Source of the DNA: Desulfovibrio sp.
Lineage (GTDB): Bacteria; Desulfobacterota; Desulfovibrionia; Desulfovibrionales; Desulfovibrionaceae
NCBI GenBank assembly: GCA_031287575.1
Contig: JAITSV010000035.1
Location: 1-41,585 of the forward strand
DNA length: 41,585 nucleotides
Reading direction: 5' to 3'
Both the position numbers and the translations under genes were made by a program. Each line of letters starts with the position of its first letter. Positions within the stretch are counted from its first letter, which is position 1. Below the pieces are notes generated by a model that had not been told where the DNA came from, did no database searches, and saw nothing but the letters and a program-made list of their open reading frames with translations. This document shows positions 12,609 to 41,296 of this stretch, piece after piece.

Positions 12609-12690
12609 GCTGTCTCCGTGTGCGGTGAACGGGCCGGGCCGGATGGTCCGGTGATGTTCCGGCCCCGCTCCGGTAATGTCCCGGCATGGT

Positions 12691-12717
12691 GGCGAGGGGG
12701 TCGGTCACCCCCTCGCC
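12691..12717 (-). other. Stem-loop between synthetase and C45 genes
   Basis: A perfect 11-bp stem (12691-12701 with 12707-12717) with a 5-nt loop lies in the 214-bp gap between the glutamine synthetase-like gene and the C45 gene. No T-run follows on the minus strand. It is more likely an mRNA processing or attenuation element than a full terminator. A weaker 7-bp hairpin (CTCTGCC/GGCAGAG) lies nearer the synthetase stop at about 12783-12802, next to a run of A residues. Confidence 0.45.
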
Positions 12718-12822
12718 GGCAGGGAAGGGAAGCGGAAGCGTTTCGGATGGTACGTGCCATGCCGCGCAGGCAGGACTTCTGCTCTCTGCCGAGGAAGGCA
12801 GAGGGCAAAAAAACGCTTGCGT

Positions 12823-14205: not shown

Positions 14206-14288
14206 AGGGCTTCCCTCGCTGATGTATTCGGACCCGTGACAGGGGCATGGACGCTACCCTTGCCAGCAATGTCATTTGACAGGACCTA

Positions 14289-14305
14289 ATCAATTCCCGT
14301 GCCAG
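14289..14305 (-). promoter_or_regulatory. Sigma-54 promoter for the synthetase/transport cluster
   Basis: On the minus strand the sequence is CTGGCACGGGAATTGAT. It matches the sigma-54 consensus YTGGCACGRNNNTTGCW at every defined position except the C of the -12 GC (here A). GG and the -12 pair are 10 nt apart as required. The predicted start is near 14278, leaving a ~73-nt leader before the synthetase ATG. A sigma-54 activator gene lies just beyond the divergent kinase gene. Confidence 0.6.
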
Positions 14306-14396
14306 GCCCCTTCTTTCTGAATTTATCCTTGTTTTTCAGATAATAAAGCAAAAAATTCCATGACCACGCCTTTCTTGCCATAGCTCACAAATCTCC

Positions 14397-14419
14397 AATT
14401 TCTTGTTTTCAAGAATTGT
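14397..14419. promoter_or_regulatory. Dyad, candidate activator-binding site
   Basis: Near-perfect inverted repeat: CAATTtCTTG on the left and CAAGAATTG on the right, with one extra T in the left arm. Its centre is about 130 bp upstream of the predicted synthetase transcript start and about 143 bp upstream of the predicted kinase transcript start. This is the usual range for sigma-54 enhancer sites. Assignment to the adjacent NtrC-type regulator is inferred from position. Confidence 0.4.
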
Positions 14420-14523
14420 TTTATCGAAAACGACACTGCGGTAAATTTCAAAAATATTCTATATATTTTAATATTTTCAATATGTTAATTTACAAATAAG
14501 CCGTCGTTGCCAAGTCGCACGAG

Positions 14524-14540
14524 TTGGTCTACATTTTGCG
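14524..14540 (+). promoter_or_regulatory. Possible sigma-54 promoter for the kinase/regulator pair
   Basis: TTGGTCTACATTTTGCG has GG and GC separated by exactly 10 nt and a good TTTTGC -12 box, but only TTGG is conserved in the -24 box. The predicted start is near 14551, between the alternative GTG (14547) and the preferred ATG (14625). It would make the two-component genes autoregulated. Confidence 0.3.
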
Positions 14541-14624
14541 AAAGGGGTGAATACCGAAAAATGTAATCTTTCATTCACCCCGCCTGCGCCCGCCAGTTGC
14601 CGCAGCGGGCCGGAGCGTTCCGCC

Positions 14625-16928: not shown

Positions 16929-16931
16929 CCC

Positions 16932-25584: not shown

Positions 25585-26931
25585 TTACTCCACGCCGTAC
25601 TCCTTCAGCTTGCGCCACAGGGTGGTGCGCGGCACGCCCAGCACCTGCGCGGCAAGGCGCTTGTTGTAGCCGGTCTTTTCCAGAATCCTGATCACGTAGC
25701 GGCGTTCCACCTCGGCCAGGGTGGGCAGGCCGTCGCCTTCCAGCGTGTCGAACTCCAGGTTGCGGATGTCCTCCGGCAGGTCCAGCAGGCCGATGGTCTG
25801 CCCGTCGGTCAGGGCCACGGCCCGCTCGATGATGTTTTCCAGTTCGCGCACGTTGCCGGGAAAGCTGTACCCCGTCAGCGCGCCCAGGGCCTGCTCGTCG
25901 ATGCCATGCACGGACTTGCGGAAGGCCAGCGCGTACTTGTCGATGAAGTGGCGCACCAGCAGGGGGATGTCCTCGCGCCGGTCGGCCAGGCGCGGCAGGG
26001 TGGTGCTGACCACGTTGAGCCGGAAAAACAGGTCCTCGCGGAAGGTGCCCTTTTCCACCTCCGCCTTCAGGTCGCGGTTGGTGGCGGCAATGACCCGGAT
26101 GTCCAGGTCCACCGGCTTTGTCCCGCCCACCCGCAGGATGCGCCGTTCCTGCAGCACGTGCAGCAGGCGCACCTGCATGGACAGGGGCATCTCGCCCACC
26201 TCGTCCAGAAACACCGTGCCCCCGCTGGCCGCTTCCAGCAGGCCCACCTTGCTGGCGCTGGCCCCGGTGAAGGCCCCCTTCTCGTACCCGAACAACTCGC
26301 TGCTGATGAGTTCCTCGGTGAAGCCGCCGCAGTTGAAGGTGACGAACGGCTGGTTCTTGCGCGGGGACAGGTGGTGCAGGGCCAGGGCCACCAGCGCCTT
26401 GCCGGTGCCGCTTTCGCCCTGGATCAGCACGTTGCAGTCCACCGGGGCCACCTTGCGGACAAGCGCGAACAAATCCTGGATGGCCGGGCTGTTGCCCACG
26501 ATGGACGACAGGCCGGAACTGCCCAGCAGAGCCTCGCGCAGGCGGGCGTTTTCCATGCGCATGCCGATCTTTTCCTGTGCCCGCTTGGCGATGGCCCGGA
26601 TCTCGGTGAAGTTCACCGGCTTGGTCACGTAGTGGAAAGCCCCCTCGCGCATGGCCTCTATGGCGGTCTGGATACTGCCGTACCCGGTGACGATGACCAC
26701 CTCGGTCTCGGGCCGCAGGGCCTTGATCCTGGGCAACAGTTCCAGCCCGTCCATGTCGGGCAGGCGCATGTCCGAGAACACCACGTCGAAGGGCCGGTCG
26801 ATCATGGCTTCCAGAAACGAGCGGGCGCTCATGAACGCCTCCACCTCGTAGCCTTCCTTGAACAGGGCGTGGCTGAGGCGTTTGCAGACCACGGGTTCGT
26901 CGTCGACGATGGCGACGCGCAACAACAGCAT
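25585..26931 (-). CDS. NtrC-family sigma-54 response regulator
   Basis: The protein has 448 aa, and its ATG overlaps the kinase stop by one base (TGATG). The receiver has Asp10/Asp11, phospho-acceptor Asp54 in FSDMRLP, Thr82 and Lys104. The AAA+ domain has Walker A GESGTGK (172-178), GAFTGA (219-224) and Walker B GGTVFLDE (237-244). The Fis-like helix-turn-helix is KRLAAQVLGVPRTTLWRKLKEYG. Length and order are standard for the family, which opens sigma-54 promoters when phosphorylated. The presumed kinase is the upstream gene. A strong sigma-54 promoter for the divergent cluster lies at 28774-28790, the likeliest target. Its receiver N-terminus (DDEPVVCKRL) resembles the stand-alone receiver at 33847-34275. 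Confidence 0.95.
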   Translation of the reverse strand: MLLLRVAIVDDEPVVCKRLSHALFKEGYEVEAFMSARSFLEAMIDRPFDVVFSDMRLPDMDGLELLPRIKALRPETEVVIVTGYGSIQTAIEAMREGAFHYVTKPVNFTEIRAIAKRAQEKIGMRMENARLREALLGSSGLSSIVGNSPAIQDLFALVRKVAPVDCNVLIQGESGTGKALVALALHHLSPRKNQPFVTFNCGGFTEELISSELFGYEKGAFTGASASKVGLLEAASGGTVFLDEVGEMPLSMQVRLLHVLQERRILRVGGTKPVDLDIRVIAATNRDLKAEVEKGTFREDLFFRLNVVSTTLPRLADRREDIPLLVRHFIDKYALAFRKSVHGIDEQALGALTGYSFPGNVRELENIIERAVALTDGQTIGLLDLPEDIRNLEFDTLEGDGLPTLAEVERRYVIRILEKTGYNKRLAAQVLGVPRTTLWRKLKEYGVE

Positions 26932-28568
26932 CAGATATCCCCCTCTTCGGACGCGGCGGCATCCGTCATTCCGGCATCCCTGCCGTCCCCGGCGGGCCGG
27001 GCCACGGGCAACAGCACCGTGAACGTGGCGCCCCGGCCTTCGCCGCCGTGCACCTCTATGCGGCCCTCGTGCCGGTGCACCAGCGCGTAGGTGACGGCAA
27101 GGCCGAGGCCGGTGCCCTTGCCCACTTCCTTGGTCGAAAAGAACGGCTCGAAGATATGCTCGCGAATGGCCTGCGGTATGCCGGGCCCGGAATCGCGCAC
27201 CTCGAAGGCCACGTGCCCCGGCGGCACGCCCATGGCCACCACGGCCACGCTGCCCCCGCGCGGCGTGGCCTGGATGCCGTTGAGCAGCAGGTTCATGAAC
27301 ACCTGTTGCAGGCTGCGCAGGTCGCCGCGCACCATGGGCAGGTCTGCGGGCACGTGCACCGAAAGGCCGATGCCGGACAGCATCACCTGGTTCTTCAGCA
27401 GGTTGACCGTGGACCCGATGATGTCCGCCGGGCGCAGCGTCACGAAGGTGGGGTGCTCGGTACGCGAAAAGTCCAGCAGGTTGCGCACGATGTCCGACGC
27501 CCGCTCCGCCTGCTGCATGATGTCGCCGATCATCTCCTGCCCGTCGGCGTCAATGGCCTTGCCGGCTTCGCCGTAGTCCTCGCGCAGTCCTTCGGCGCTC
27601 AACAGCACGTTGTTGATGGGGTTGTTCAGCTCGTGCGCGATGCCCGCCGTGAAGGTGCCCAGCGCCGCCATCTTGCGGGCCTGCAACAGGTGCTCCTGGT
27701 TCACGGCCAGTTCGTGCGCCATGCGGTTGAAGGCGTGGATGAAGCTGGCGATCTCGCTCAGCTGTTCCGCCCCGGTGGCGATGGGGCTGAAGTCGCCGCG
27801 CCCCACCCGGCCCGTGGTGGCGGCCACCATGCCCAGGGGGCGCAGCAGACCGGTGGAGATGAGCTTGATGACCAGCACCATCAGCAGCAGGAACACCGCC
27901 AGGAAGGCCAGAGGCAGCACCAGCGTGCGCGCCAGCGCCTTGTGCGCGCGCTCGCGCTTCTGCCCGCGCAGGGCATCTGCGGCATCGATGAGCGACTTGC
28001 CGAGGGTGCGCAGTTCTTCCTGGTTGGCCGTGCCGCCCCGCACCAGGGTGCGCACCGACCGTCCGTAGCGCGAAAGCACATTGCGGAAGCTGTCCAGTTC
28101 CGCCTGCCCCGCCACCATTGCCATGTCGTCGGCCAGTTCGGCGGTCAGGGCGTCGATGCGTTCCAGATAGGCCAGGCTTTCGGTCAGGCTGCCCGCGTCA
28201 CGGTAGAACAGGTAGTTCTTTTCGTAGCGACGCACCTCCAGGATGTTGTTCAGGAGGTCGTCGTAACTTTCGCCCAGCAGCAACCGCTGGCTCACCGTGG
28301 ACAGGCTCCAGTAGTTCAGCGCGGCCAGCGCGCCGATGGAGATGAACGTCACGGCGAACAGGATGAAGATCTTCCCCTTGATGGAACGAAAGAACTGCCG
28401 GGGGCAGCCGAAGACGCTGAAGACCTCCGCCCGGTCGGATGCGGCGGGGGGCGTTGGCGGGGTACCCACCGCACCGGATACGGTGGCCGTACCCGTGGTG
28501 CCCGTTACGGCAGTCGTGCCCGTGGAGAAAGACTGGTCGTCCCCTGAGAAATCCTGTTGGCTGTTCAT
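26931..28568 (-). CDS. Membrane sensor histidine kinase
   Basis: The protein has 545 aa. A Thr/Gly/Ala-rich N-terminus of ~60 residues precedes TM1 (about 66-85). A helical extracytoplasmic domain follows (about 86-213, with [12 protein letters not shown], as in four-helix-bundle sensors), then TM2 (about 214-236) and a HAMP linker ([20 protein letters not shown]). The H-box has His312 in [12 protein letters not shown]. The HATPase has N-box [26 protein letters not shown] and GTGLGLAV. It should autophosphorylate at His312 and pass phosphate to the downstream sigma-54 regulator, and possibly to the stand-alone receiver encoded among the dikinase-like genes. The signal is unknown; the neighbouring TauE/SafE permease hints at a sulfur compound or anion. 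Confidence 0.94.
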
Positions 28569-28654
28569 GCTGTATTCCTGGTGGGTTGCCGTCGACGGAC
28601 ACTGGTGGATACCCGCCCGCCGCGAGCGCCGACACCTGTCCTATTCCCATATTG

Positions 28655-28674
28655 AAACATTTTTCACGATGTTT
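28655..28674. promoter_or_regulatory. Dyad, candidate enhancer site for the sigma-54 regulator
   Basis: AAACAT-N8-ATGTTT is a perfect 6-bp inverted repeat. Its centre is about 137 bp upstream of the predicted UspA-like transcript start and about 96 bp upstream of the kinase ATG. The position suits a sigma-54 activator site that could also autoregulate the kinase operon. Assignment is inferred. Confidence 0.4.
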
Positions 28675-28773
28675 ACGCGCAGGCTGTTCAAAATGGAATA
28701 GCCCAGCCACCCCTCCTCCGCCCCTCATTTCGACAACCAACCGGAACAACTCATTAAAAAAATGCGTTCCCGC

Positions 28774-28790
28774 ATGGCATCGCGGTTGCT
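28774..28790 (+). promoter_or_regulatory. Sigma-54 promoter for the UspA/TauE/dikinase-like cluster
   Basis: ATGGCATCGCGGTTGCT matches the core TGGCA-N7-TTGCT, with GG and GC exactly 10 nt apart. The predicted start is near 28801, so the leader before the ATG at 28814 is only about 13 nt and contains the ribosome site GAGG (28804-28807). The divergent operon encodes a GAFTGA-type activator. Confidence 0.65.
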
Positions 28791-28813
28791 TAGGGCGCCG
28801 CACGAGGTCGTGC

Positions 28814-29206
28814 ATGGAACGCATTCTTGTTGGCATCGACGAACGCCGCGCCCACTGGGAGGCGCTGGCCCATGGCTGTTCGCTGGCCCGGCGCATCCGG
28901 GCCCGGCTGTACGTGCTGTTCGTGAACGGCACGCGGGCCGGGGCTTCCGGCGGCGCGGTGCGCCAGCGTCTGGAACTGCTGGTGGGCGCGGCCAAGGCCG
29001 AAGGAGTTCCCGTGGAATATTTCATCGCCGAAGGAGGATACGAGGACGCCATAGTTTCATTCGTGAACACCCACGGAATAACGCTGCTCATTCATGAAGC
29101 GGCTCCCATCGATCATGCTGCCACCGGCCATGCCGTATCCGCGTTGCAGGCGCTGCGCCACCGGATTTCGTGCCGGGTCGAGATCGTGAATCCCAAACGT
29201 GCATAA
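28814..29206 (+). CDS. UspA-like small protein
   Basis: The protein has 130 aa from the ATG at 28814, with GAGG six bases upstream. The start MERILVGIDE and the layout (ALAHGCSLARRIRARLYVLFV, then a second alpha/beta half ending CRVEIVNP) match the universal stress protein fold. The ATP-binding G-x2-G-x9-G(S/T) motif expected near the C-terminus is not visible (LLIHEAAPIDHAATGHAVS instead), so it may not bind ATP. It is the first gene behind the sigma-54 promoter, 32 bp before the TauE/SafE permease, which suggests an accessory or sensing role for the cluster. Confidence 0.8.
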   Translation: MERILVGIDERRAHWEALAHGCSLARRIRARLYVLFVNGTRAGASGGAVRQRLELLVGAAKAEGVPVEYFIAEGGYEDAIVSFVNTHGITLLIHEAAPIDHAATGHAVSALQALRHRISCRVEIVNPKRA

Positions 29207-29238: not shown

Positions 29239-30189
29239 ATGAACATACCGCTGCACATGTACCTGCCCATAGCAGGAAACAGCGTGAACATCGCCGCCAT
29301 CCTGGGCCTTGGCGGGGCCGTCGGGCTGCTTTCGGGCATCTTCGGCGTGGGCGGGGGCTTTCTGATGACCCCCCTGCTGATCATGCTGGGCATTCCGCCC
29401 ACGGTTGCCGCCGCATCCGATTCCAACCAGATCGTGGGGGCCTCCACCTCCGGCACGCTGGCCCATTTCCGCCTGGGCAACGTCGATTTCAAAATGGGAC
29501 TGCTGCTGCTGGTGGGCGGCGTGGCAGGCGGCAGCGTGGGCGTGCGCATCATCAAGCTGCTGCGCGCCATGGGCAACGCCGACTTCCTGATCAACGTCAC
29601 CTACGTGCTCATGCTGGGGCTGGTGGGCGGCTACATGTTCTTCGAAAGCCTGCAGGCGCTGCGCGCGCCGCGCGCCGGGGCAACCCCCACGGCCGCGTCC
29701 GGCGCGGCTCCTGCCCGTGAATCCCTGTACGAACGCTGCATCCGCAGCATGCCGTGGCAGACGGACTTTCCCCGTTCCGGGGTGCGCCTTTCGCTGCTCA
29801 TGCCGCTGGGGCTGGGCGCGCTGGTGGGCGTGCTGGCCGCCATCATGGGCGTGGGCGGCGGGTTCATCATGGTGCCGGTGATGGTCTACCTGCTGCGCAT
29901 GCCCATGCACGTGGTGGTGGGCACCAGCCTGTTCCAGATCCTGTTCACCTGCGTCAACGTGACCATCATGCAATCCATCGAAAACCACACCGTGGACTTC
30001 ATCCTGGCCCTCTTGCTGCTCATCGGCTCGTCCGTGGGCGCGCAGGTGGGCACGCGCATCGGCAAGAAGCTGCAGGGCGACCAGCTGAAGATCCTGCTGG
30101 CAACGCTGGTGCTTGCCGTCATGGGCAAGATGCTCTTCGATCTGCTGGCGCGCCCCGACGTGCTGCTGGCCTACGCGGGAGGGCATTAG
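29239..30189 (+). CDS. TauE/SafE (DUF81) family membrane permease
   Basis: The protein has 316 aa, with GAGG upstream of the ATG. The two halves each carry the family repeat: SGIFGVGGGFLMTPLLIML near residues 35-53, and AIMGVGGGFIMVPVMVYLL in the second half. About eight membrane helices are split by a cytoplasmic Ala/Pro-rich loop (LRAPRAGATPTAASGAAPA). Conserved SNQIVGASTSG also fits. The family exports or imports sulfite, sulfoacetate and other small organosulfur or carboxylate anions. In a sulfate reducer, sulfite or a sulfonate is a reasonable guess, not shown. It is followed 2 bp later by the TIGR02186-like gene. Confidence 0.93.
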   Translation: MNIPLHMYLPIAGNSVNIAAILGLGGAVGLLSGIFGVGGGFLMTPLLIMLGIPPTVAAASDSNQIVGASTSGTLAHFRLGNVDFKMGLLLLVGGVAGGSVGVRIIKLLRAMGNADFLINVTYVLMLGLVGGYMFFESLQALRAPRAGATPTAASGAAPARESLYERCIRSMPWQTDFPRSGVRLSLLMPLGLGALVGVLAAIMGVGGGFIMVPVMVYLLRMPMHVVVGTSLFQILFTCVNVTIMQSIENHTVDFILALLLLIGSSVGAQVGTRIGKKLQGDQLKILLATLVLAVMGKMLFDLLARPDVLLAYAGGH

Positions 30190-30191
30190 CC

Positions 30192-30965
30192 ATGCGTCGC
30201 ACGCATCCGTTGCACATCGTTTCCGGCCTGCTCCTGTGTCTGTGCCTGCTGGCCGCCACGGCCCGCGCCGATGACGGCGGCGTGGCCCTGGCCGTGAAGC
30301 CCGGCGACATCGTCATCGGCACCGCGTACACCGGCACCACCCTGCATTTCTCGGGCGAGGCGCCGCGCGGCAGCGCCATCGTGGCCCGGTTCACCGGGGC
30401 TTCCGGCGACCTGGCCCTGCGGCAGAAAGGCAAGGCCTTCGGCCTGTTGTGGATGAACATGGGCACCGTGCACCTGCACGACGTGCCGTCGGTGTACCTG
30501 GTGGCCTCGTCGCGTCCGCTGGCGGACATCGGCGGCACCGGCCTTGGCCTCGACGCCGTGCGCGCCGGGGTGCAGCAGGAAGGGGGCGCGGCAGCCCAGG
30601 GCCCCGACGGGCTGGACGCGCTGGACGTGCCCGCCGAACTGGTGCGCCTGAAGCAGCACGACGGCCTGTACCGCGAAGGCGTGGGCGGCATCACCGTCAC
30701 CGACGACGGGACCTTCTCCGCCGAGTTGGCCATCCCCTCGCGCATGTCTCCCGGCACCTACACGGTGGAAGTGTTCGCCCTGCGCGACGGGCAGGTGGCG
30801 GGTTCCACCTCCGCGCCGGTGCGGGCCGAACTGGTGGGCGCGCCCGCGTGGCTCGCGCACATGGCCTTCGACCGGGGGCTGCTGTACGGCGTGCTGGCCA
30901 CGCTGGTGGCCATCCTGGCCGGGTTGGCCGTGGGGTTGGTGTTTCAGAGCAAGGGCGCCCATTAG
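30192..30965 (+). CDS. TIGR02186-like (Alph_Pro_TM) exported protein with C-terminal membrane helix
   Basis: The protein has 257 aa, with GGGAGG before the ATG. A signal peptide occupies the first ~25 residues (HIVSGLLLCLCLLAATARA). A beta-rich domain follows (VKPGDIVIGTAYTGTTLHFSGEAPRGSAIVARFTG in two halves), ending in one C-terminal helix (LLYGVLATLVAILAGLAVGLVF). This is the layout of the Alph_Pro_TM/TIGR02186 family, which I recall occurring next to TauE/SafE permeases. The bulk should face the periplasm, tethered to the inner membrane. It probably works with the permease as a periplasmic partner, but no biochemical function is established that I can name. Confidence 0.75.
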   Translation: MRRTHPLHIVSGLLLCLCLLAATARADDGGVALAVKPGDIVIGTAYTGTTLHFSGEAPRGSAIVARFTGASGDLALRQKGKAFGLLWMNMGTVHLHDVPSVYLVASSRPLADIGGTGLGLDAVRAGVQQEGGAAAQGPDGLDALDVPAELVRLKQHDGLYREGVGGITVTDDGTFSAELAIPSRMSPGTYTVEVFALRDGQVAGSTSAPVRAELVGAPAWLAHMAFDRGLLYGVLATLVAILAGLAVGLVFQSKGAH

Positions 30966-31244: not shown

Positions 31245-33878
31245 GTGGAAATCCTCTCGCACATGGCCGACCTTCTCGCCCGCTGGCGCGGTTCGCGGGG
31301 GCTGCCGTTCGCGCTGCTCTTCAAGAAATTCAAGAGCATCCTCGAACGCAACAACCGCATCCTCGAACTGATGGCCGACATGGGCGACAAGCTGGGCGGC
31401 GAATACGTGTTCGACCGCCAGTACATCGTCGATGCCTGCGAACAGCTGGACGACCACGTCTTCAAGCTCATCTCGGACATGAGCGTGCTGGGCCAGCGCA
31501 AGAACGTGGAGCTGTTCCTGGCCTTCGAGCGCATCCAGCACCAGTTGCAGGAGGAAATCGCCGGGCGCCACCATTTCGAGGGGGGACGGCTGGTGCTGCC
31601 GTTCCGCGACATCGGCCCGGACGCCGAGGACGAGGTGGGCGGCAAGCTGACCCAACTGGGCGACCTGTCCAACCGCCTGCACCTGCGCACGCCCGACGGC
31701 TTCGCCATCACCACCGCCGCCTTCTTCGCCTTCATGACCCGCAACGGCCTGCTGGCGCAGGCCCAGCGCGGCATGCAGGACTGGGACGGCACCGACAAGG
31801 GCCTGCGCGAACTTTCCGACCGCATGCAGCGCGGCATCCACGATGCCCCGCTGCCGTGGGGGCTGGTGGCCCAGATCAACGCCATGGTGGACGTGCTGGG
31901 CATGCGCCGCAAGCAGCCCCTGCGTCTGGCCCTGCGCAGCAGCGCCTGGGGCGAGGATGGCGACGCCAGCTTTGCCGGGCAGTACGCCACGGAACTGAAC
32001 GTGCCGCCCGACCGGGTGGTGGAGGCGTACAAGAACGTCATCGCCAGCGTCTATTCCGTGGAAGCATGGCGCTACCGGCTGGACAGGGGCTTTCACGAAA
32101 GCGAAGTGGCCATGGCCGTGGGCTGCCAGCTGATGGCCCACAGCCGGGCAAGCGGGGTGCTGTACACCTGCGCCCTGCACGCGGGCGACAACTGCGAGGC
32201 CATGGTCGTCAGCGCCGCGTGGGGCGGCGGCGCCGCCGTGGTGGGCGGCGAGACGGCGACGGACACCTTTCTGATGGAACGCACCCCGCCCTACCGCATC
32301 ATCACCCGCGAAATCGCCCACAAGGCGCGGCGCATGGTGCCCGCGCCCAAGGGCGACATGACCTGGGAAGACGTGCCCCCCGACGGGCAGGACGCCCCCT
32401 GCCTGACCGACGCCCAGTTGGAGCAGCTGGCGCGCGCGGGCATGTCGCTGGAGCGGTATCACAAACGTCCGCAGGACGTGGAATGGACCTTCGACGCCGA
32501 GGGCGAACTGCACGTGCTGCAATCGCGCCCGCTGTGCACCACGGCGGAGGCGGGCCTGTGCGTGCCGGTGCAGGACGCCACCAGCCGGGCGGAGGTCATC
32601 CTGTCCGGCCGGGGCATGGTGGCCCAGCGCGGGGTGGCCGTGGGCCGGGTGGTGCTGGTGGACCACGCCACGGACCTGGACACCTTTCCCGACGGCGGCA
32701 TCCTGGTATCCAAGTACACCTCGCCACGCTATGCGCGGGTCATGCGGCGGGCGCAGGGCATCATCACCGACGTGGGTTCGCCCACGGGGCACATGGCCAC
32801 CATTGCCCGCGAGCAGCGCGTGCCCGCCGTGGTGAACACCGAAGTGGCCACGGAACTCTTGCGCGACGGCGAGGAAATCACCCTCGACGCCACCCAGAAC
32901 GTGATCTACCGGGGGCGCATCGCGGAGCTGGACCGCTTCGAGCGCACCGAGACCGACGTGTTCGAGGAATCGTACGAATACCGGCTGCTGCGGCGCCTGC
33001 TGAAGCGCATCTCGCCGCTGAACCTGGTGGACCCGCATTCCGACGACTTCAAGCCCAGGGCCTGCCGCACCTACCACGACATCACCCGGTACATTCACGA
33101 AAAGGCCGTGGAAACGCTGGTGGACCTCAGCCAGCGGCACGAGGCGCTGCACCATGCCCCGGCCCGCCGCCTGCTGGACGGTCCGCCGCTGGGGCTTACC
33201 GTCATCGACGCGGGCGGCGGCACCGAATGCCTGCCCGAAGAGGCCGGGCTGGTCACCGGGCAGGTCTGCTCCGTGCCGCTGCGCGCCTTTCTGGACGGGC
33301 TGACCGAATCGGGCATGTGGGACACGGCGCCGGTGCCGGTGGACCTTGGCAGCTTCATGTCCAGCTTCACGCGCACCTTCAGCGCCTCGCAGGCGGGCCC
33401 GCGCGAGGTGGGCCGCAACCTGGCCGTGGTGCTGCGCGAATACATGAACGTGAACATGCGCCTGGGCTACCATTTCAACATCATCGACGCCTACATAGGC
33501 AGCACCATCAACGACAACTACATCTACTTCCGGTTCCTTGGCGGGGTCACGGAACTGGTGCGGCGCTCGCGCCGGGCGCGCTTCGTGGCCGAGGTGCTGG
33601 AACGCTTCGACTTTCGCGTGGAGGTTCACGGCGACCTCGTGGTAGGCCGTATCAAGAAGCTGTCGGAGCCGCGCATGCTGCTGCGCATGCGCATGCTGGG
33701 CGGACTGGTGGGCTATGCCCGCCAGCTCGACGCCCGCATGCACAGCGACGAGCAGGTGACGGACCACGTGCGGACCTTCATGGAGGCCATTTCCAACGTC
33801 GTCGCCACACACCACGACGACCGGACCGAACGCAAGGGAGGCGGACATGCCGTCACGACTGCGCATCCTGGTGCTTGA
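31245..33878 (+). CDS. Dikinase-like protein, paralogue A: ATP-grasp, swivelling His domain, unknown C-terminal domain
   Basis: The protein has 877 aa from the GTG with GGAG upstream. Residues ~25-105 form a helical N-terminal domain shared with paralogues B and C. ATP-grasp (PPDK_N-type) follows: VGGKLTQLGDLSNR (131-144), ALRSSAWGEDGDASFAGQYAT (from 229) and QDVEWTFDAEGELHVLQSRPL. The swivelling PEP-utiliser domain has ITDVGSPTGHMATIARE with phospho-acceptor His516. The PEP/pyruvate barrel that normally follows is missing. Instead a ~280-residue domain carries CRTYHDI (Cys607), VIDAGGG and MRLGYHF (His743), followed by YFRFLGG. By analogy with PEP synthase and rifampicin phosphotransferase, ATP should phosphorylate His516, and the last domain should choose the acceptor. 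The acceptor is unknown. Its 3' end overlaps the receiver gene by 32 nt. Confidence 0.85.
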   Translation: MEILSHMADLLARWRGSRGLPFALLFKKFKSILERNNRILELMADMGDKLGGEYVFDRQYIVDACEQLDDHVFKLISDMSVLGQRKNVELFLAFERIQHQLQEEIAGRHHFEGGRLVLPFRDIGPDAEDEVGGKLTQLGDLSNRLHLRTPDGFAITTAAFFAFMTRNGLLAQAQRGMQDWDGTDKGLRELSDRMQRGIHDAPLPWGLVAQINAMVDVLGMRRKQPLRLALRSSAWGEDGDASFAGQYATELNVPPDRVVEAYKNVIASVYSVEAWRYRLDRGFHESEVAMAVGCQLMAHSRASGVLYTCALHAGDNCEAMVVSAAWGGGAAVVGGETATDTFLMERTPPYRIITREIAHKARRMVPAPKGDMTWEDVPPDGQDAPCLTDAQLEQLARAGMSLERYHKRPQDVEWTFDAEGELHVLQSRPLCTTAEAGLCVPVQDATSRAEVILSGRGMVAQRGVAVGRVVLVDHATDLDTFPDGGILVSKYTSPRYARVMRRAQGIITDVGSPTGHMATIAREQRVPAVVNTEVATELLRDGEEITLDATQNVIYRGRIAELDRFERTETDVFEESYEYRLLRRLLKRISPLNLVDPHSDDFKPRACRTYHDITRYIHEKAVETLVDLSQRHEALHHAPARRLLDGPPLGLTVIDAGGGTECLPEEAGLVTGQVCSVPLRAFLDGLTESGMWDTAPVPVDLGSFMSSFTRTFSASQAGPREVGRNLAVVLREYMNVNMRLGYHFNIIDAYIGSTINDNYIYFRFLGGVTELVRRSRRARFVAEVLERFDFRVEVHGDLVVGRIKKLSEPRMLLRMRMLGGLVGYARQLDARMHSDEQVTDHVRTFMEAISNVVATHHDDRTERKGGGHAVTTAHPGA

Positions 33879-34275
33879 CGACGAACCCATCGTCTGCAAG
33901 CGGCTGAAACCCGCCTTCCAGAAGGCGGGGTACGAGGTGGAAACCTGCACCGACAGCGCCACCGCGCTGCAACGCATAGAAGAAACCGCGTTCGACGTGG
34001 TGGTCACGGACCTGAAGATGGAAGGGGCCGACGGCCTGCAGGTGGTGGAGCGCACCCACCAGGTACTTCCCCGGGCGCGCATCGTGGTCATCACCGGGTT
34101 CGCCACGCTGGACACGGCCAAGGAATCGTTCCGCAAGGGCGCGTTCGACTTCGTGGCCAAGCCGTTCAAGCTGGGCGACATCCTGGACTGCGTGCGGCGC
34201 ATCGAGGCGGAACTGCGCGAGGGCGCGGAACGGGGCGATGCGGACGGCGGGGCCGGAAAGGATACGAGCAGCTAG
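33847..34275 (+). CDS. Stand-alone CheY-like receiver protein
   Basis: The protein has 142 aa from the ATG at 33847 with an excellent GGGAGGC upstream; it overlaps the end of paralogue A. It has a complete receiver domain: Asp11/Asp12 (VLDDEP), phospho-acceptor Asp55 (VVTDLKM), Thr83 and Lys105 (AKPF). A charged, disordered tail replaces any output domain. The N-terminus DDEPIVCKRLKPAFQKAGYEV closely resembles the start of the sigma-54 regulator at 25585-26931 (DDEPVVCKRLSHALFKEGYEV), which suggests a common kinase, probably the one at 26931-28568. Placed between two phosphotransfer-domain proteins, it could regulate them allosterically or act as a phosphate shuttle. Confidence 0.9.
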   Translation: MPSRLRILVLDDEPIVCKRLKPAFQKAGYEVETCTDSATALQRIEETAFDVVVTDLKMEGADGLQVVERTHQVLPRARIVVITGFATLDTAKESFRKGAFDFVAKPFKLGDILDCVRRIEAELREGAERGDADGGAGKDTSS

Positions 34276-34284
34276 GGGGCGCGC

Positions 34285-36855
34285 ATGTGGTGGCCGTTTT
34301 CCGCGCGCGGGGGCGCGCATCCTCCGGCGGATACCCGCTGGCGCATCCGGGCGCTGTTCCAGAACTTCCGGCGCATCCTGGCCTGCAACACCCAGGCGCT
34401 GGAGCGCATGGCGGAAATGGACCAGGCCCTCGGCGGGGCCTACATCTTCGACCGGGCCTTTCTGGAGGCTTCGGTGCACGAACTGGCGCGGCTGGTGCAC
34501 CACGTGGTCTACAACCTCAACGCGCTGACCGGGAACGGCTACGTGGCGCTGTACGACCGCTACGAGGAACTGCGCGGTGCGCTGGGGGGCGTGCTGGCGG
34601 GAGGCATGCTGGCGGGAGGCATGGACGGCACGGGGCCGGGTTCGGACACGGACGCGGGAGCGGCTGCGGGCGGCCTGGCCGACCTGGTCGCGGACGTGCG
34701 CGACGTGGATTGGGAGCAGGAACCGACGGCGGGATTCGAGGCGGCATGCCTGGCCCGGCTGGCCCGCCACCACGGGGCGCGCATCGCGGATGCGCTGGTG
34801 GTGGGCACGGCCGGGTGCGCGGTGCTTGCGGACGGTGGCGCCAACGCCGACGCCATGGAGCGGGATCTGCGCGACCGGGCCGTACGGATGGGCGGCGACA
34901 TCGCATCCTTCACCCTGCGCGCCTGCCCCGTGGATGAAACCGGGCGACCGGCGGGCCCCGAAACGGAACGCACCGGGGTGGCCCCCGACATGCTGTCCCA
35001 TGCGTTGCGGGATATGTTGCGGGACGTGACGGGGGATGCAGACGCGCCGGGTACGACGGGCAGCGCCCACGGCGTGGTGGCCCTGATCCAGCCGGAATCC
35101 CCCCTGTCCGTCTCCGGCTGGCTGCACAGCCATGCGCCCATGGGGCCGGTGCGCCATGCCGTGCTGGTGGAGGCCCGGTTTGCCTCCGGGGACGGGACGA
35201 AGCACGCCCCCCGCGTGTCCACCGACCGCTACGCCTTGTCGCGGGTACATCCCTTCGACCTGCTGTGTTGCGAAATTCCCCAGCGCGCCGCCAGTGCCAC
35301 CCTGCCGGACGGCCGCGAACCGCTGGCGCCCTCAGACGCGCTGCGCGGCCTGCTGCGCGGGTCCGCCCTGCTGGAACCGCCCTTCCCGCAGGGGCTGGCC
35401 GGTCTGGCCATGGCGGCGGAACGCCTGGCCGGGCAACCGGTGGAACTGCGCTGGGGCATGGACCCGGAGGGACGCTGCGTGCTGCTGGGGGTACGCCCGT
35501 CCACGGTGCGGTTGGCGGAAGATGCGCCGGACGGATCGGATGACACTCCCGCCCCGGACGCCAGCGCGGACGACGTCCCCGCCATGCACGTGCTGCGGCG
35601 CGGCGGGCAGACCGTGCAGATGGGCGTGGCCGCAGGCGGCGTGGTCCGCCTGACGGAAGCCACCCGGCCGGAGGACTGTCCGCTGGGCGGCATCGGCGTG
35701 GCGCGCGCCGCCTCGCCCAATCTGGCCCCCCTGCTGGGCAGGCTGGCCGGGCTGGTCACCGAATTCGGCACCACGGCGGGGCACCTGGCCACCGTGGCAC
35801 GCGAGTTGCGCGTGCCCGCCGTGTTCGGCATGCCCGGCGTCCGCGACGCGGCCAACCCCGGCGACATCGTCACCCTGGACGCAGGCGGGACCACCCTCTA
35901 CCGGGGCGCGGTGGAAGGGCTGCTGCACACCACGGACGCGGATGAAGACCTGCACCCCGCCGCGCCGGAATACCGTACCCTGCGCCGCCTGCTGCGCCTG
36001 GTGGCCCCGCTGGACCTGGTGGACCCCGACGCACCCGACTTTTCTCCGGCGGGCTGCCGCACCTACCACGACATCCTGCACTTCTGCCACGAAATGTCCG
36101 TGGAGGCGCTGATCAACCTGCGCGACACCCGCCCGGAACTGGCCGCCCCGCGCGTGCACAGGGTACGGCTGGACCTGCCGCTGGATCTGCGCCTGCTGGA
36201 CGTGGGCGACGGCGTGGCCCTTCCCCCCGGCATGGCGGGCGAGCCCACGGGCCGCGACCCGTGGCTGGACCTGTCCGCCGTGCGCAGCGCCCCCCTGCTG
36301 GCCTTTCTGGACGGACTGCGCGCGGAGGGCGCGTGGTCCCACCGCCCTGCGCGGCTGCGCGCGGGCGACATCCTGTCCGGCATGGGCGACGCATCCGGCA
36401 CTGCCGCGAACGGAGCCGGACCGGATGCGGGCTGGGCCGCCACCGGGGCCAACCTGGCCATCGCCGGGCGCGACTACCTCAACCTCACCCTGCGCCTCGG
36501 TTACCATTTCACCGTGCTGGACGTGCTGCTGCACGACAACCCCAACCGCAACCACGCCTATTTCCGCTTCGCGGGGGGCATGGCCGATCCGGCCCGGCGG
36601 GTGCGCCGCGCCCACCTTGTGCGCAACGTGCTGGAGGAACTTGGCTTTGCCGTCCGCATGCGCGGCGACATGGTCACCGGCAGGCTGCGCGCCATGGAAC
36701 ACGCCGCCCTGCGCGACATCGTGGCCGCGCTGGGCATGCTGACGGCCTTCACCCGGCAGGTGGACACCACCCTGAACGACGACGCCGACATGGTGCGCGC
36801 GGCCACGGAGTTCCGCCTGCTGCGCGAAAACCCGCAACGGCAAGCGCGGGGCTGA
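34285..36855 (+). CDS. Dikinase-like paralogue B: degenerate ATP-grasp, intact swivelling His domain
   Basis: The protein has 856 aa, starting 9 bp after the receiver stop with GGGGG upstream. It shares the helical N-terminal domain (FRRILACNTQALERMAEMDQ). The expected ATP-grasp region is poorly conserved: the RSSxxxED and SFAGQ motifs of A and C are absent, and only a trace of the final motif remains (PVELRWGMDPEGRCVLLGVRPS). The swivelling domain is retained with TEFGTTAGHLATVARELRVP (His500). The shared C-terminal domain is intact: CRTYHDI (Cys591), LLDVGDGV, and LRLGYHF (His741) followed by YFRFAGG. B is likely a pseudokinase or a phospho-acceptor served by A or C. It contains several Gly/Ala/Asp-rich inserts. 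Divergence rather than a frameshift explains the loss, since the frame is open throughout. Confidence 0.82.
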   Translation: MWWPFSARGGAHPPADTRWRIRALFQNFRRILACNTQALERMAEMDQALGGAYIFDRAFLEASVHELARLVHHVVYNLNALTGNGYVALYDRYEELRGALGGVLAGGMLAGGMDGTGPGSDTDAGAAAGGLADLVADVRDVDWEQEPTAGFEAACLARLARHHGARIADALVVGTAGCAVLADGGANADAMERDLRDRAVRMGGDIASFTLRACPVDETGRPAGPETERTGVAPDMLSHALRDMLRDVTGDADAPGTTGSAHGVVALIQPESPLSVSGWLHSHAPMGPVRHAVLVEARFASGDGTKHAPRVSTDRYALSRVHPFDLLCCEIPQRAASATLPDGREPLAPSDALRGLLRGSALLEPPFPQGLAGLAMAAERLAGQPVELRWGMDPEGRCVLLGVRPSTVRLAEDAPDGSDDTPAPDASADDVPAMHVLRRGGQTVQMGVAAGGVVRLTEATRPEDCPLGGIGVARAASPNLAPLLGRLAGLVTEFGTTAGHLATVARELRVPAVFGMPGVRDAANPGDIVTLDAGGTTLYRGAVEGLLHTTDADEDLHPAAPEYRTLRRLLRLVAPLDLVDPDAPDFSPAGCRTYHDILHFCHEMSVEALINLRDTRPELAAPRVHRVRLDLPLDLRLLDVGDGVALPPGMAGEPTGRDPWLDLSAVRSAPLLAFLDGLRAEGAWSHRPARLRAGDILSGMGDASGTAANGAGPDAGWAATGANLAIAGRDYLNLTLRLGYHFTVLDVLLHDNPNRNHAYFRFAGGMADPARRVRRAHLVRNVLEELGFAVRMRGDMVTGRLRAMEHAALRDIVAALGMLTAFTRQVDTTLNDDADMVRAATEFRLLRENPQRQARG

Positions 36856-36857
36856 CC

Positions 36858-39626
36858 ATGCTGCACCATCTTCTGGAACGCTGGCGCGCACGCGGGGCCG
36901 CGCGGCAGGCGGCGGCGCTGGACACGCTGAAGGCGCGCTACCACGCCTTCCGCATCCTGCTGGAAAACAACGGGCGGGCGCTGGAATGCCTGGCCGGTTT
37001 CGACGGGACATCCGGCACTACCCGGCGCGAACTGGTGGAGGAACTGGTCTCGCTGACCGGCGAACTGGTGGACGGCCTGGACCTGCTGTCCGACGGGGCG
37101 CATCCCGGCCTGTTCGCTGCCTACGGGCGCATCGCGGGGCGGGTGGAGCAGCTGGGCGCGGACACGGATCCCGTACGGGAGAAGGATATCCCGTGCCTTT
37201 CCCTGGACGGCCTGCGCCCGGAGCAGGCCGGACTGGCGGGCACCAAGGCCGCCACGCTGGCCCGGCTGCGCGGTTACGGGCTGCCGGTGCCGCCGGGATT
37301 CGTGGTTACCGCCACGGCGGTGGCCCGCCTGCTGGCCGCGCCGGGGCTGGAGGCGCAACTGCGTCGCCTGCTGGACGTGGCCGAGGCCGACCCCGGCAGC
37401 CTTGCGGTGACCACCGCGCGCATCCGCGAAGCCATCCTGGCCGTTCCCATGCCCGCCGAGGTGGAACATGCGGTGCGCCGGGCATGGGCCGACCTGGCGG
37501 CGGACCTGCCCCCCGGCCACGGTCCCCTGCTGCTGGCCGCGCGCAGCAGCGGCACGGCGGAGGACAGGGCGGAACATTCCTTTGCCGGGCAGTACGCCAC
37601 GGTGCTGGGCATCCGCACGCCGGATGCGCTGCTGGACGCCCTGCGCGAGGTGGCGGCCAGCGCCTTCGGCCAGCGCGCGCTGGCCTACCGGCGGCACATG
37701 GGCCTGCCGCGCGGCGAGGCGGACATGGCCGTGCTGTGTCAGGCCATGGTGCCCGCCCGCACCGCCGGGGTGCTGTTCACGCGCGATCCGGCCCGTGCGC
37801 CGGGCAGCTATCGGGCCGACGACGAACGCATGCTGGTGGTGGCGGTTCCCGGTCTGGGCACGCTGGCCGTGGACGGCGCCGCCCCGGCGGACGTCTACCT
37901 GCCCGCGCGCGACCCGGCGGCGGTGCGCGCGGGCGACGTGGAAACCCGCATCGCCCGCAAGACCCTGCGCGAAGTGCTGGCGCCGGACGGCACGCTGGTC
38001 CGGCGTCCCGTGCCCCCCGAAGACGCCGAGGCCCCCACCCTGTCGCCGCGGGAACTGGCCACGCTGGTGCGGCTGGCCCGCATGGTGGAGGGCGTGGAGG
38101 ACGGCCCGCAGGACATCGAATGGGCGGTGCACGAGGCCACCGGCGCGGTGCTCCTGTTGCAGGCCCGCCCCCTGCGCATGGCCGGTACCCGGCCCCCTTC
38201 CGCCGCGCATCAGGACGGCATGGACGGCGCGCCGCTGCTGCGCGGGGCGTGCGCCTCGCCGGGGGTTGCCGTGGGGCGGGTACACCTGGCCCACAGGCCC
38301 CGCGAATTCGCGCCGCCGAACGGTAACGCGGCGGCAGGACACAATGGGACTGGCGGAACTGGCAGAGCTGGCAGAGCTGGCGGAACTGGCGGAACTGGCG
38401 GAACTGGCGCCATCGGCAATGACGCCGCAACAGCGACGGATGCCCCCGCCGTGCTGGTGCTGCCGCACAGCATTCCCGACGCGGCCTCCCATCTGGACGG
38501 TTACGCGGCCATTCTGGTGGAGGCCGGAAACCCGGCGGACCATCTTTCGTGCGTGGCCCGCGAGCGCGCCATCCCCATGCTGGTGGGCGTGGCCGGGGCC
38601 ATGGCCCTTGCCGAGGGCACGGGCGTGCTGGTGGATGCCGGGCGCGGCGCCGTGCTGGACGTGCCCGACGCCCTGTGGGACGGCATGCTGGCCGCCACCC
38701 GGCGCGAGGCCGCGCGCAGGCGCGCCCCGCAGGACAGGGAGACGCCCGGCGAACGGGAACTGCGCTCGCTGATCGTGCCGCTGCACCTTACCGACGCCTA
38801 CGGCCCCACGTTCAACGAACGGGAATGCCGCTCGCTGCACGACATCGTGCGCTACGTGCACGAAAAGGCCGTGCTGGCCATGTTCCGGGCCGGGGACGAG
38901 GTGATGGAGACGGCGGGCACCCTGCTGCGGCGCGTGGAACTGGGCGTGCCCTTCCACGTGCTGGCCATCGACGTGGGCGGCGGTTTTCACGGCGGGACGC
39001 CGGGCGGAAGCGCGCGGCGCCGCGCGCTGCATGGCCCCGTCCTGCCTGCGGTGCCGGAAGACGTGGCCTCGGTGCCGTTCGCGGCGCTGTGCGAGGGCCT
39101 GACCACGCCGGGGCTGGCCTGGGGGCCGCCCGAGGGCGGCGTGCCCGCCGGGCTGCTGTCGCGCGCGCTGCTGGACGGGCGCGGCGAGCGGCCCGTGGGG
39201 GAATTCAACTATGCGCTGGTCTCGCGCGACTACTGCAATCTCAACGCGCGGGTGGAATACCACTTCGCCATGCTGGACGCGCTGTGCACCGGCAACCCGC
39301 GCGAAAACCACATCCGTTTCCGGTTCAAGGGCGGCGGCACGGGCGGGGCGCGGCGGGCGCGACGCATCGCCTTCATGCGCGAGGTGCTGGCCGGATCCGG
39401 GTTCTTCACGGCGGCGGTGGACGACCTGCTCACGGCCACCCTGGCCGGGGAACCCGCCGGGGTGATGCGGCAACGGCTGGTGCTGCTGGGGCGGCTGCTG
39501 GGCTACACCCGCCTGCTGGATGCGGCCATGACCGATGACGACGCACCGGCGCTGTTCGCGCGGGCCTTCCTGTCCGGCCGGTACGACACCAAGGACGCGC
39601 GGACGTTGCGGGGCGAACGGGACTGA
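36858..39626 (+). CDS. Dikinase-like paralogue C: PPDK-type ATP-grasp, swivelling His domain, unknown C-terminal domain
   Basis: The protein has 922 aa, with its ATG 2 bp after the stop of B. It has a helical N-terminus, then the best-conserved ATP-grasp of the three: GTKAATLARLRGYGLPVPPGF, LLAARSSGTAEDRAEHSFAG (Arg229 onward), VLFTRDPARAPG and QDIEWAVHEATGAVLLLQARP. The swivelling domain has NPADHLSCVARERAIP with His562. The C-terminal domain shared with A and B carries CRSLHDI (Cys657), AIDVGGGF, ARVEYHF (His802) and RFRFKGGG. A Gly/Thr-rich stretch encoded by seven 9-bp repeats (38347-38409) lies between the ATP-grasp and His domains. No PEP/pyruvate-binding barrel is present, so a PEP synthase annotation would be misleading. 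It is the last gene of the cluster. Confidence 0.85.
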   Translation: MLHHLLERWRARGAARQAAALDTLKARYHAFRILLENNGRALECLAGFDGTSGTTRRELVEELVSLTGELVDGLDLLSDGAHPGLFAAYGRIAGRVEQLGADTDPVREKDIPCLSLDGLRPEQAGLAGTKAATLARLRGYGLPVPPGFVVTATAVARLLAAPGLEAQLRRLLDVAEADPGSLAVTTARIREAILAVPMPAEVEHAVRRAWADLAADLPPGHGPLLLAARSSGTAEDRAEHSFAGQYATVLGIRTPDALLDALREVAASAFGQRALAYRRHMGLPRGEADMAVLCQAMVPARTAGVLFTRDPARAPGSYRADDERMLVVAVPGLGTLAVDGAAPADVYLPARDPAAVRAGDVETRIARKTLREVLAPDGTLVRRPVPPEDAEAPTLSPRELATLVRLARMVEGVEDGPQDIEWAVHEATGAVLLLQARPLRMAGTRPPSAAHQDGMDGAPLLRGACASPGVAVGRVHLAHRPREFAPPNGNAAAGHNGTGGTGRAGRAGGTGGTGGTGAIGNDAATATDAPAVLVLPHSIPDAASHLDGYAAILVEAGNPADHLSCVARERAIPMLVGVAGAMALAEGTGVLVDAGRGAVLDVPDALWDGMLAATRREAARRRAPQDRETPGERELRSLIVPLHLTDAYGPTFNERECRSLHDIVRYVHEKAVLAMFRAGDEVMETAGTLLRRVELGVPFHVLAIDVGGGFHGGTPGGSARRRALHGPVLPAVPEDVASVPFAALCEGLTTPGLAWGPPEGGVPAGLLSRALLDGRGERPVGEFNYALVSRDYCNLNARVEYHFAMLDALCTGNPRENHIRFRFKGGGTGGARRARRIAFMREVLAGSGFFTAAVDDLLTATLAGEPAGVMRQRLVLLGRLLGYTRLLDAAMTDDDAPALFARAFLSGRYDTKDARTLRGERD
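38347..38409 (+). repeat. In-frame 9-bp tandem repeat inside paralogue C
   Basis: Seven copies of a GGAACTGGC-type unit (variants GGACTGGC, AGAGCTGGC) encode Gly-Thr-Gly/Arg-Ala-Gly triplets in an interdomain linker. The period is a multiple of three, so copy-number changes would keep the frame. The same unit recurs just after the gene. Confidence 0.8.
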
Positions 39627-39818: not shown

Positions 39819-40505
39819 TCAGGCGTGGTGGAAACGCAGGGCGGGCAGTTCCAGCGCGGTGAGCATGTGCCCGCCGCCCGCGCCGGTGTCGATGCCGATG
39901 CGTCCGGGGGCCACCAGCGGCGTGGCGAACGAGGTGTGCCCGAAGACCACGGTGCGGTTTCCGATATGATCGTGCGGGGCCACGTCCCGCCGGACCAGAC
40001 GGCGGCTGTCCAGCCGCTGGGGTTCACTGCGCGGATCGTCGGCCAGGCCCGGATCGGCATGCACGAAGACGTGGGTGGGCGTTTCGTGCGCAAAGGCCAG
40101 CCCGCGCAGAAAGGCCGCGTGCTCCGGCGGCAGGCAGGCCAGTCCGGCCAGTTGGTGCGGGGCGTCGGCGCCATAGCTGCGCAGGGTGGCTTCCACCCCC
40201 AGAAAGCGCAACAGCGGCAGCAGGTCCGCATCGCCCGTATCCGCGTAGTCCAGCAGGGTCTGTTCGTGATTGCCGCGCAGGAACACCGCGCCCGGACAGG
40301 TGCGTTGCAACGCCAGCAGCAGATCGATGACGCCCCTGCTGTCCGGCCCACGGTTCAGGTAATCGCCCAGGAACACCACGGTGTCCCGCTCGCGGTCCAG
40401 CGGCAGGCGGCGCAGCAGCGCCTCCAGCCGGTGGCGCTGGCCGTGGATGTCGCCCACGGCAAAGGTGCGGGGCGTGCGGGTGTGGTCGGAGCGGGTGCGG
40501 GGCAT
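39819..40505 (-). CDS. Metallophosphoesterase, Ser/Thr phosphatase or diadenosine-tetraphosphatase type
   Basis: The protein has 228 aa from the ATG at 40505. An in-frame GTG at 40553 would add 16 residues, and neither start has a strong ribosome site. The PPP-type metal-binding motifs are GDIHG (18-22), GDYLNRGPDS (47-56) and GNHE (78-81), with later histidines in VFVHADPG and VFGHTSF. The motifs bind two metal ions and hydrolyse phosphoesters. Bacterial relatives include PrpA/PrpB-like protein phosphatases and ApaH. It converges on the dikinase-like cluster. Reversal of a phosphorylation made there is possible, but proximity is the only evidence. Confidence 0.9.
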   Translation of the reverse strand: MPRTRSDHTRTPRTFAVGDIHGQRHRLEALLRRLPLDRERDTVVFLGDYLNRGPDSRGVIDLLLALQRTCPGAVFLRGNHEQTLLDYADTGDADLLPLLRFLGVEATLRSYGADAPHQLAGLACLPPEHAAFLRGLAFAHETPTHVFVHADPGLADDPRSEPQRLDSRRLVRRDVAPHDHIGNRTVVFGHTSFATPLVAPGRIGIDTGAGGGHMLTALELPALRFHHA

Positions 40506-40738
40506 GGCGCGACGGGGTTGCGGGAACAGCCACGGACGCTGGAAAACGCCCACGGCGAAAGGAACATTCTTGTCCTACCGCAAGCCTTGCACGGGCTCAA
40601 GCGGGCATCGACAACCAGCCGGCACGCCTGCATTGCCGGGCAAACCGTGCCGTCACGAGGCCCGGTTTGCGTCCGGTTTGCGGCGCGCCCGGAAGGATTC
40701 GCCCCCCGGCCAGGAACATGGAAACCCCGTAACGAAGC

Positions 40739-40792: not shown

Positions 40793-41296
40793 TCATGCCT
40801 TCTTCGGTCTGCCCTTTGCCTTGGGCTTGCCCGGAGTCGACGTGGCGGCCGTGTCCGTGGCCGGTGCCGCTTCGGCAGCCTTGGCCTTCGAACCTGCCAC
40901 GGCACGGCGGCGCTCCCAGAGCTGCATTTCCTTCATCTTCTTGCGACGGGCCCGCACAAGCGCCTTGCAGGCAAGCGGGGTGCCCTTCTTCAGCCCCCAC
41001 TTCTCGCGGTAGGCATCGGCATCCAGACCGTGCAAGGCAAGATGCTTGGCCGTAATGATCTTGAACACCTTGCCGCATTCAAGACAGGTGACGCCTGTTT
41101 CCCTGATGGACTTCGCGGCGTCCGCCTTCGCAGCGGCGGCCGTGGCCCCCCCTGCGGGCTCCGTAGCGGGCTGCGACAGGGCCTGAAGGCTTCTGGCAAG
41201 AGCATTCACCATACTGGTCATTTCATCGGCAGTCATCGCGCGGACGGTTGCCTGCGCCTTCACCAGCTCCAGTGCCTGCTTGAACATGTCATCCAT
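40793..41296 (-). CDS. MucR/Ros-family zinc-finger transcriptional regulator
   Basis: The protein has 167 aa, with GAGG five bases before the ATG. The centre matches the Ros/MucR zinc finger: Cys71-x2-Cys74 (TCLECGKVFK), then His85 and His89 (ITAKHLALHG), followed by LDADAYREKWGLKKGTPL, the family signature after the finger. The N-terminal ~45 residues are helical and may oligomerise as in MucR. The C-terminal ~45 residues are Ala/Lys/Pro-rich and basic (GKPKAKGRPKKA) with an AT-hook-like GRPKK, which would help bind AT-rich DNA. Such regulators act as H-NS-like silencers of AT-rich DNA in proteobacteria. It has its own promoter and terminator, so it is a single-gene unit. The target genes are unknown. 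Confidence 0.92.
   Translation of the reverse strand: MDDMFKQALELVKAQATVRAMTADEMTSMVNALARSLQALSQPATEPAGGATAAAAKADAAKSIRETGVTCLECGKVFKIITAKHLALHGLDADAYREKWGLKKGTPLACKALVRARRKKMKEMQLWERRRAVAGSKAKAAEAAPATDTAATSTPGKPKAKGRPKKA

Follow-up and report, generated by a model that had tools for sequence, protein, structure and literature searches.

Enzyme I of the phosphoenolpyruvate (PEP):sugar phosphotransferase system (PTS) is driven by PEP. The characterised dikinases encountered in this analysis act on small molecules (PDB names; PMC4844700; PMC12167813), and HpeHI, a split dikinase, demonstrates that ATP-grasp and swivelling phosphohistidine domains can work on separate proteins (PMC12167813). A dikinase-like gene also belongs to a nitrate cluster of Desulfovibrio vulgaris, in which nitrate resistance follows from disrupting the transporter, the receiver or the dikinase-like gene by insertion, with polar effects possible (PMC4001038). 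The 41,585-nucleotide stretch of Desulfovibrio sp. DNA analysed here (contig JAITSV010000035.1 of assembly GCA_031287575.1, referred to as the window) carries three related genes of this kind, A, B and C, between positions 31,245 and 39,626. As judged from sequence comparison and structure models, these genes share a swivel domain and an unrecognised C-terminal domain (CTD), B has lost its ATP site with its phosphohistidine kept, and the genes are linked to transporter and signalling genes. The family is carried by sulfate-reducing bacteria, and its proteins look suited to passing phosphate from ATP to a histidine. Given that its neighbours are genes for an anion transporter and for two-component signalling, it may well control the adjoining transporter rather than make sugar precursors.

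Domains of A, B and C and the ATP site of B

The three genes and their domains are arranged as follows:

31245..33878, plus strand: A, full dikinase-like protein with the new CTD, 877 residues, GTG start
31629..32549, plus strand: ATP-grasp (PPDK_N) domain of A, residues 129-435, ATP-site residues intact, Pfam PPDK_N E 6.5e-75
32685..32897, plus strand: swivel phosphohistidine domain of A, residues 481-551, His516 at 32790-32792, PEP-utilizers 2.1e-20
32967..33794, plus strand: CTD of A, about residues 575-850
34285..36855, plus strand: B, pseudo-dikinase, 856 residues, without the ATP site but retaining swivel His500 and the CTD
34678..35505, plus strand: degenerate ATP-grasp region of B, about residues 132-407
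35689..35883, plus strand: swivel domain of B, residues 469-533, His500 at 35782-35784, PEP-utilizers 2.1e-13
35968..36819, plus strand: CTD of B (approximate)
36858..39626, plus strand: C, second full dikinase-like protein, 922 residues from ATG
37233..38210, plus strand: ATP-grasp (PPDK_N) domain of C, residues 126-451, Pfam PPDK_N 1.4e-71
38442..38648, plus strand: swivel domain of C, residues 529-597, His562 at 38541-38543, PEP-utilizers 3.6e-10
38730..39572, plus strand: CTD of C (approximate)

For C, the start of the open frame at 36261 gives too long a protein, and the ATG at 36858 was used instead. The domain order in the family is N-terminal region, ATP-grasp, swivel and CTD, and the six long open frames examined for fused domains contained PPDK_N and PEP-utilizers only. 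Two family members at other loci seem to be devoid of the N-terminal region (L152, 8309-10378, 690 residues; L163, 17653-19800, 716 residues, the latter at the edge of its locus).

An earlier note, made from the letters of the window alone, had described three tandem dikinase-like paralogues sharing a helical N-terminal domain and a swivel domain with His516, His500 and His562. The swivel domain and its histidines are found exactly there, with a PEP-utilizers match in A, B and C, and an N-terminal region is indeed common to all three, its three long helices having been modelled in B and the regions of A and C compared by alignment. The genes share one orientation but are not strictly contiguous, as a receiver gene (33847-34275) lies between A and B, and the dikinase-like label suits A and C, which match PPDK_N, but not B.

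Taken by itself, B does not resemble a complete dikinase. Its sequence is that of a pseudo-dikinase without a recognisable ATP site: it has no Pfam PPDK_N match, even though its model resembles the ATP-grasp fold. The same loss is seen among the 27 B orthologues, 20 of which lack all five ATP-site residues, with a maximum of two kept; the RSS motif is present in none of the 27, and the swivel His in every one. The five ATP-site residues are complete in 108/117 A-like and 28/29 C proteins, and the swivel His is present in 115/117 and 28/29, respectively. In the tree, B (27/27, support 0.98) and C (28/29, support 1.0) form separate clades. A recent tandem duplication that left A, B and C without any division of labour would account for adjacent genes of one family, but is contradicted by this separation of B and C over many loci and by the recurrence of the three-gene order in 23/52 loci (see below), making it very improbable.

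The C-terminal domain

The CTD of A, about 280 residues long, resembles those of B (6.7e-53) and C (1.2e-33) far beyond chance, as the earlier note had proposed, and all of the motifs listed there are present: CR(T/S)xHDI (at A607, B591 and C657), (I/L)D(V/A)GxG (A654, B638 and C704), and YHF (A742, B740 and C801), followed 20 residues later by FRFxGG. H743, R777 and D829 are invariant in 173/173 aligned family members.

That note's view of the domain as unrecognised withstood profile searches, which yielded no credible sequence match in Pfam, NCBIfam or PDB; the predicted fold had no clear counterpart in PDB. Pfam searches with 15 CTD rows returned six families, each on one row and, apart from PEP-utilizers, at E 0.005 or weaker; the PEP-utilizers match (7.4e-13) most likely reflects residual swivel sequence in the row concerned. 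PDB sequence profiles produced a single row, Dad3 (E 0.99 and 0.48). Neither comparison of the CTD model with PDB nor a Foldseek search of BFVD gave a match at E<=0.001, and tblastn of the A CTD against plasmids found none. Weak rows naming RecJ, the C-Ala domain of alanyl-tRNA synthetase, arginine kinase and red chlorophyll catabolite reductase were not accepted as relatives of the CTD.

The CTD likewise failed to align with the PEP/pyruvate barrel. When a 72-sequence CTD profile was set by hhalign against the section of the PEP-synthase-like protein of this genome that carries the barrel, the probability was 0.1 %. The CTD model does not have the (beta/alpha)8 architecture, and no PEP-utilizers_C match was found in A, B or C with Pfam at E up to 1. 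The genome's PEP-synthase-like protein is encoded by a separate gene at C67 and contains PPDK_N, PEP-utilizers and PEP-utilizers_C (1.4e-43). Taken from profiles and a predicted model, these results support the view that the CTD is not the PEP/pyruvate barrel and lies outside the families charted by the libraries searched, and therefore that A, B and C would not be ordinary gluconeogenic PEP synthases. Gluconeogenic paralogues with a diverged C-terminal barrel would explain why the best NCBIfam matches are PEP synthase models, yet these matches cover the first two domains only and lie far below the cut-offs; given the hhalign result, the shape of the model and the separate barrel-bearing gene, this explanation has next to no likelihood.

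Gene neighbourhood, spread and the nitrate cluster

The remaining genes of the locus are:

25585..26931, minus strand: NtrC-type response regulator (receiver, sigma-54 AAA+, HTH_8), with a match in many of 80 synteny rows
26931..28568, minus strand: histidine kinase (HAMP, HisKA, HATPase_c), transcribed divergently to the operon
28439..29206, plus strand: universal stress protein-like gene (coordinates of the open frame, whose real start is probably further downstream), Pfam Usp 3.3e-5 and synteny
29239..30189, plus strand: TauE/SafE (TSUP) transporter, Pfam TauE 1.6e-47
30189..30965, plus strand: Alph_Pro_TM/TIGR02186 transmembrane protein (approximate start inside a longer open frame)
33847..34275, plus strand: stand-alone CheY-like receiver between A and B, 142 residues, phosphorylation residues intact, Pfam 5.1e-26
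39819..40553, minus strand: calcineurin-like metallophosphatase, convergent with C, Pfam 5.9e-15

The plus-strand order is thus Usp, TauE, Alph_Pro_TM, A, receiver, B and C, with the NtrC-type regulator and kinase on the minus strand. No promoter is claimed, because the sigma-54 pattern is no commoner in the window than chance (55 found, 69 expected). Elsewhere in the window lie a separate upstream signalling pair, a hybrid histidine kinase and a sigma-54 response regulator gene (14547-18926), and a ROS/MucR-type transcriptional regulator at its end (40793-41296, minus strand).

The CTD was matched in 48/59 relatives, at 1 to 9 matches per positive genome (7 in the source genome), and in 146/395 genomes of the phylum, a survey that scored up to six candidates per genome for presence rather than copy number. 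Synteny was read from the best 80 of 238 loci confirmed among 270 stretches, drawn from all genome contigs with A-type patterns only; the closest named loci belong to Nitratidesulfovibrio, Desulfovibrio, Desulfomicrobium, Desulfobulbus and the like. TauE lies upstream of A in all 64 loci with enough sequence (16/80 were too short to score), Alph_Pro_TM in all 69 (11/80 too short), and a receiver within 900 bases downstream of A in 80/80. A second family gene is present in 26/62 loci and all three in 23/52 with enough sequence; 20 of these 23 three-gene loci have a phosphatase match. The receiver residues D, D, D, T and K are retained in 74/74 aligned sequences, these being the best receiver match per locus, irrespective of adjacency to A, from the window and 73 loci (7 loci had no match within the size limits).

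Since the 80 loci came from A-type patterns, 20 loci from 20 genomes were also taken by hand from the phylum CTD matches (three of 12-14 kb, the rest of about 20 kb) and compared with 20 control regions, each 19.8 kb long and placed at round coordinates, from five of the same genomes. TauE was found in 18 family loci versus 1 control, a solo receiver in 18 versus 1 and a histidine kinase in 19 versus 3. Twelve of the 20 are Alph_Pro_TM loci, and TauE occurs in six of the other eight. The source genome's three other family loci (L149, L150 and L151) each contain TauE and histidine kinase genes. Such neighbours fit an anion transporter under signalling control better than a free-standing enzyme.

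One of these loci, L151, has the order DUF169, TauE, hypothetical, phosphonate-binding protein, histidine kinase, receiver, family member and dual-specificity phosphatase, in agreement with the nitrate cluster DVU0251-DVU0245/Dde_0597-0605 in Table 3 of Korte et al. 2014 (PMC4001038). The gene order of that cluster (DUF169, TauE, hypothetical, PtxB-like, histidine kinase, response regulator, PPDK-like, phosphatase) fits L151 and does not fit the window locus, and the L151 phosphatase is unrelated to the window metallophosphatase. In D. vulgaris, isolated mutants of DVU0251, DVU0250, DVU0247 and DVU0246 grow equally with and without nitrate, and the DVU0245 mutant does not (PMC4001038). Nitrate resistance on disruption is published for genes of D. 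vulgaris Hildenborough and D. alaskensis G20 (PMC4001038). According to this literature, the nitrate-cluster member, like its neighbours, is needed for the nitrate-sensitive state. A thiosulfate transporter that leaks was proposed by its authors, who also referred to unpublished observations of mild sickness on thiosulfate (PMC4001038), and TSUP substrate specificity in D. vulgaris is stated elsewhere to be without data (PMC4641369) and TSUP function in sulfate reducers to be not predictable (PMC5840216). The main text of a randomly barcoded transposon sequencing (RB-TnSeq) paper has no mention of DVU0251, TSUP or thiosulfate (PMC10102598). Such loci have already been noticed in print. The earlier note's proposal of an undescribed phosphotransfer system distinct from gluconeogenic PEP synthase, in which the new domain would define a new acceptor, is supported in part: the CTD is not the barrel, phosphotransfer and an acceptor role of the CTD stand as predictions, and the locus type is partly described. 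No description of the CTD or of a mechanism is given in the accessible text of PMC4001038, and no report of the domain, or of a dikinase role at such loci, was found in open-licence literature. The DVU2956-DVU2964 operon was considered as a counterpart of the window locus, but DVU2956, described as lacking an N-terminal domain, is unlike the receiver-bearing activator of the window (PMC4641369).

A candidate relay and its relation to known systems

The reading favoured here, to which we assign a probability of about 45%, is that an ATP-driven phosphohistidine relay controls the anion transporter. As members of the PEP synthase/PPDK/rifampicin phosphotransferase superfamily, A and C would be ATP-dependent histidine phosphotransferases with a lineage-specific CTD replacing the pyruvate barrel. 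Their intact sites suggest that ATP charges the swivel His of each, and analogy with rifampicin phosphotransferase and PPDK suggests that the charged swivel then moves to the CTD. Because B cannot use ATP itself, its His500 would need to be charged in trans by A or C, as the HpeHI precedent allows, making B a relay or regulatory partner. Linkage suggests the receiver or the transporter as the most likely phosphate target. Through signalling or energising, the relay of A and C may switch on the TauE/SafE transporter together with the histidine kinase, sigma-54 activator and stand-alone receiver, and the phosphatases of the window locus and L151 would reverse the step. The stricter version, a protein phosphorelay from ATP to the swivel His of A or C, on to the CTD and B and finally to the receiver or TSUP transporter, in effect a PEP-synthase engine turned into a transport-control or signalling system, is offered more tentatively. 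The possible polarity of the insertions upstream of DVU0246 and the contrast between Dde_0605 and DVU0245 lower the odds of both versions and slightly raise those of the alternatives.

An alternative of some plausibility, argued by analogy, is that the CTD binds a compound imported by TauE/SafE, for instance an organosulfonate or another oxyanion-bearing metabolite, which A and C phosphorylate with ATP. Characterised dikinases (rifampicin phosphotransferase, HpeHI) do act on small molecules (PMC4844700; PMC12167813), and the His, Asp, Asn and Arg positions of the CTD that vary rarely or never would suit an anion active site. Against this, the recurring partners are regulators and a transporter, although only those gene types were sought; losing a post-import enzyme is not expected to protect from nitrate in the way that losing its neighbours does (PMC4001038), subject to the polarity of the insertions; and B, with its His but without an ATP site, better suits a protein partner.

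Several observations weigh against the favoured relay. The transposon insertions in DVU0251, DVU0250 and DVU0247 lie upstream of DVU0246 and are possibly polar on it (PMC4001038), so that the resistance could stem from DVU0246 rather than directly from the transporter. Pooled DVU0250 mutants have a fitness of -5.82, yet the isolated mutant is resistant; the kinase gene DVU0248 is a pseudogene; and the D. alaskensis mutant of Dde_0605, the DVU0245 homologue, has a nitrate fitness of 2.08 versus -6.04 for DVU0245 (PMC4001038). Moreover, L151, itself a paralogue of the window locus, was identified with the nitrate cluster from its gene order and domains rather than from the sequence of DVU0246. 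TauE is missing from the vicinity of two of the 20 hand-picked loci, one locus lacks every partner, and a control region, L183, contains a family member with none of them. Among the B proteins, that of the window alone retains two of the five ATP-site residues (R and E) in the alignment. Finally, one paralogue has lost both its ATP-site residues and its swivel His, which is replaced by Gln, with the CTD kept:

C68:143500-163000 (L150), 11770-14625 within the locus: degenerate family member of 951 residues, with an intact member, a solo receiver and a kinase at the same locus

To judge from this paralogue, the domain can matter without phosphohistidine chemistry. A further reading takes the proteins as scaffolds that sense ATP/AMP and bind the receiver or transporter through the CTD, the chemistry being secondary or vestigial in several members; it also suits the loss of most, or all, of the ATP site in 27/27 B proteins. 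The retention of ATP-site residues and His in most A-like and C proteins implies selection for catalysis, however, and the scaffold explanation appears unlikely.

The family is common among the relatives searched, with up to nine copies per genome, and lies beside TSUP transporters; the mutant phenotype of the matching locus also bears on nitrate treatment of oil-field souring (PMC4001038). L151 reproduces the order and domain set of the nitrate cluster, with TauE, a kinase, a receiver and a family member that combines PPDK_N and PEP-utilizers, whereas the window locus differs in its Alph_Pro_TM protein, NtrC-type activator, B and C genes and phosphatase. Rifampicin phosphotransferase (NF041857) and HpeHI share the ATP-grasp and swivel parts with the family but have another acceptor domain; the NCBIfam scores of A (226.9) and C (169.3) against the former remain below its cut-off of 999, the CTD has no match to it, and no catabolic or resistance context was seen at the loci. 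The swivel of rifampicin phosphotransferase is C-terminal, after the acceptor domain (His825; PMC4844700 and profile positions), whereas here the CTD follows the swivel. PEP synthase (PF01326, PF00391 and PF02896) resembles the family in its ATP-grasp followed by a swivel His, with the ATP-site residues kept in A and C, but the family has an extra N-terminal region, another CTD in place of the PEP/pyruvate barrel, and transporter and signalling partners. Enzyme I of the PTS, being PEP-driven, does not use an ATP-grasp domain; if the favoured relay is correct, a working link between dikinase, pseudo-dikinase and receiver would be an ATP-driven counterpart of the PTS.
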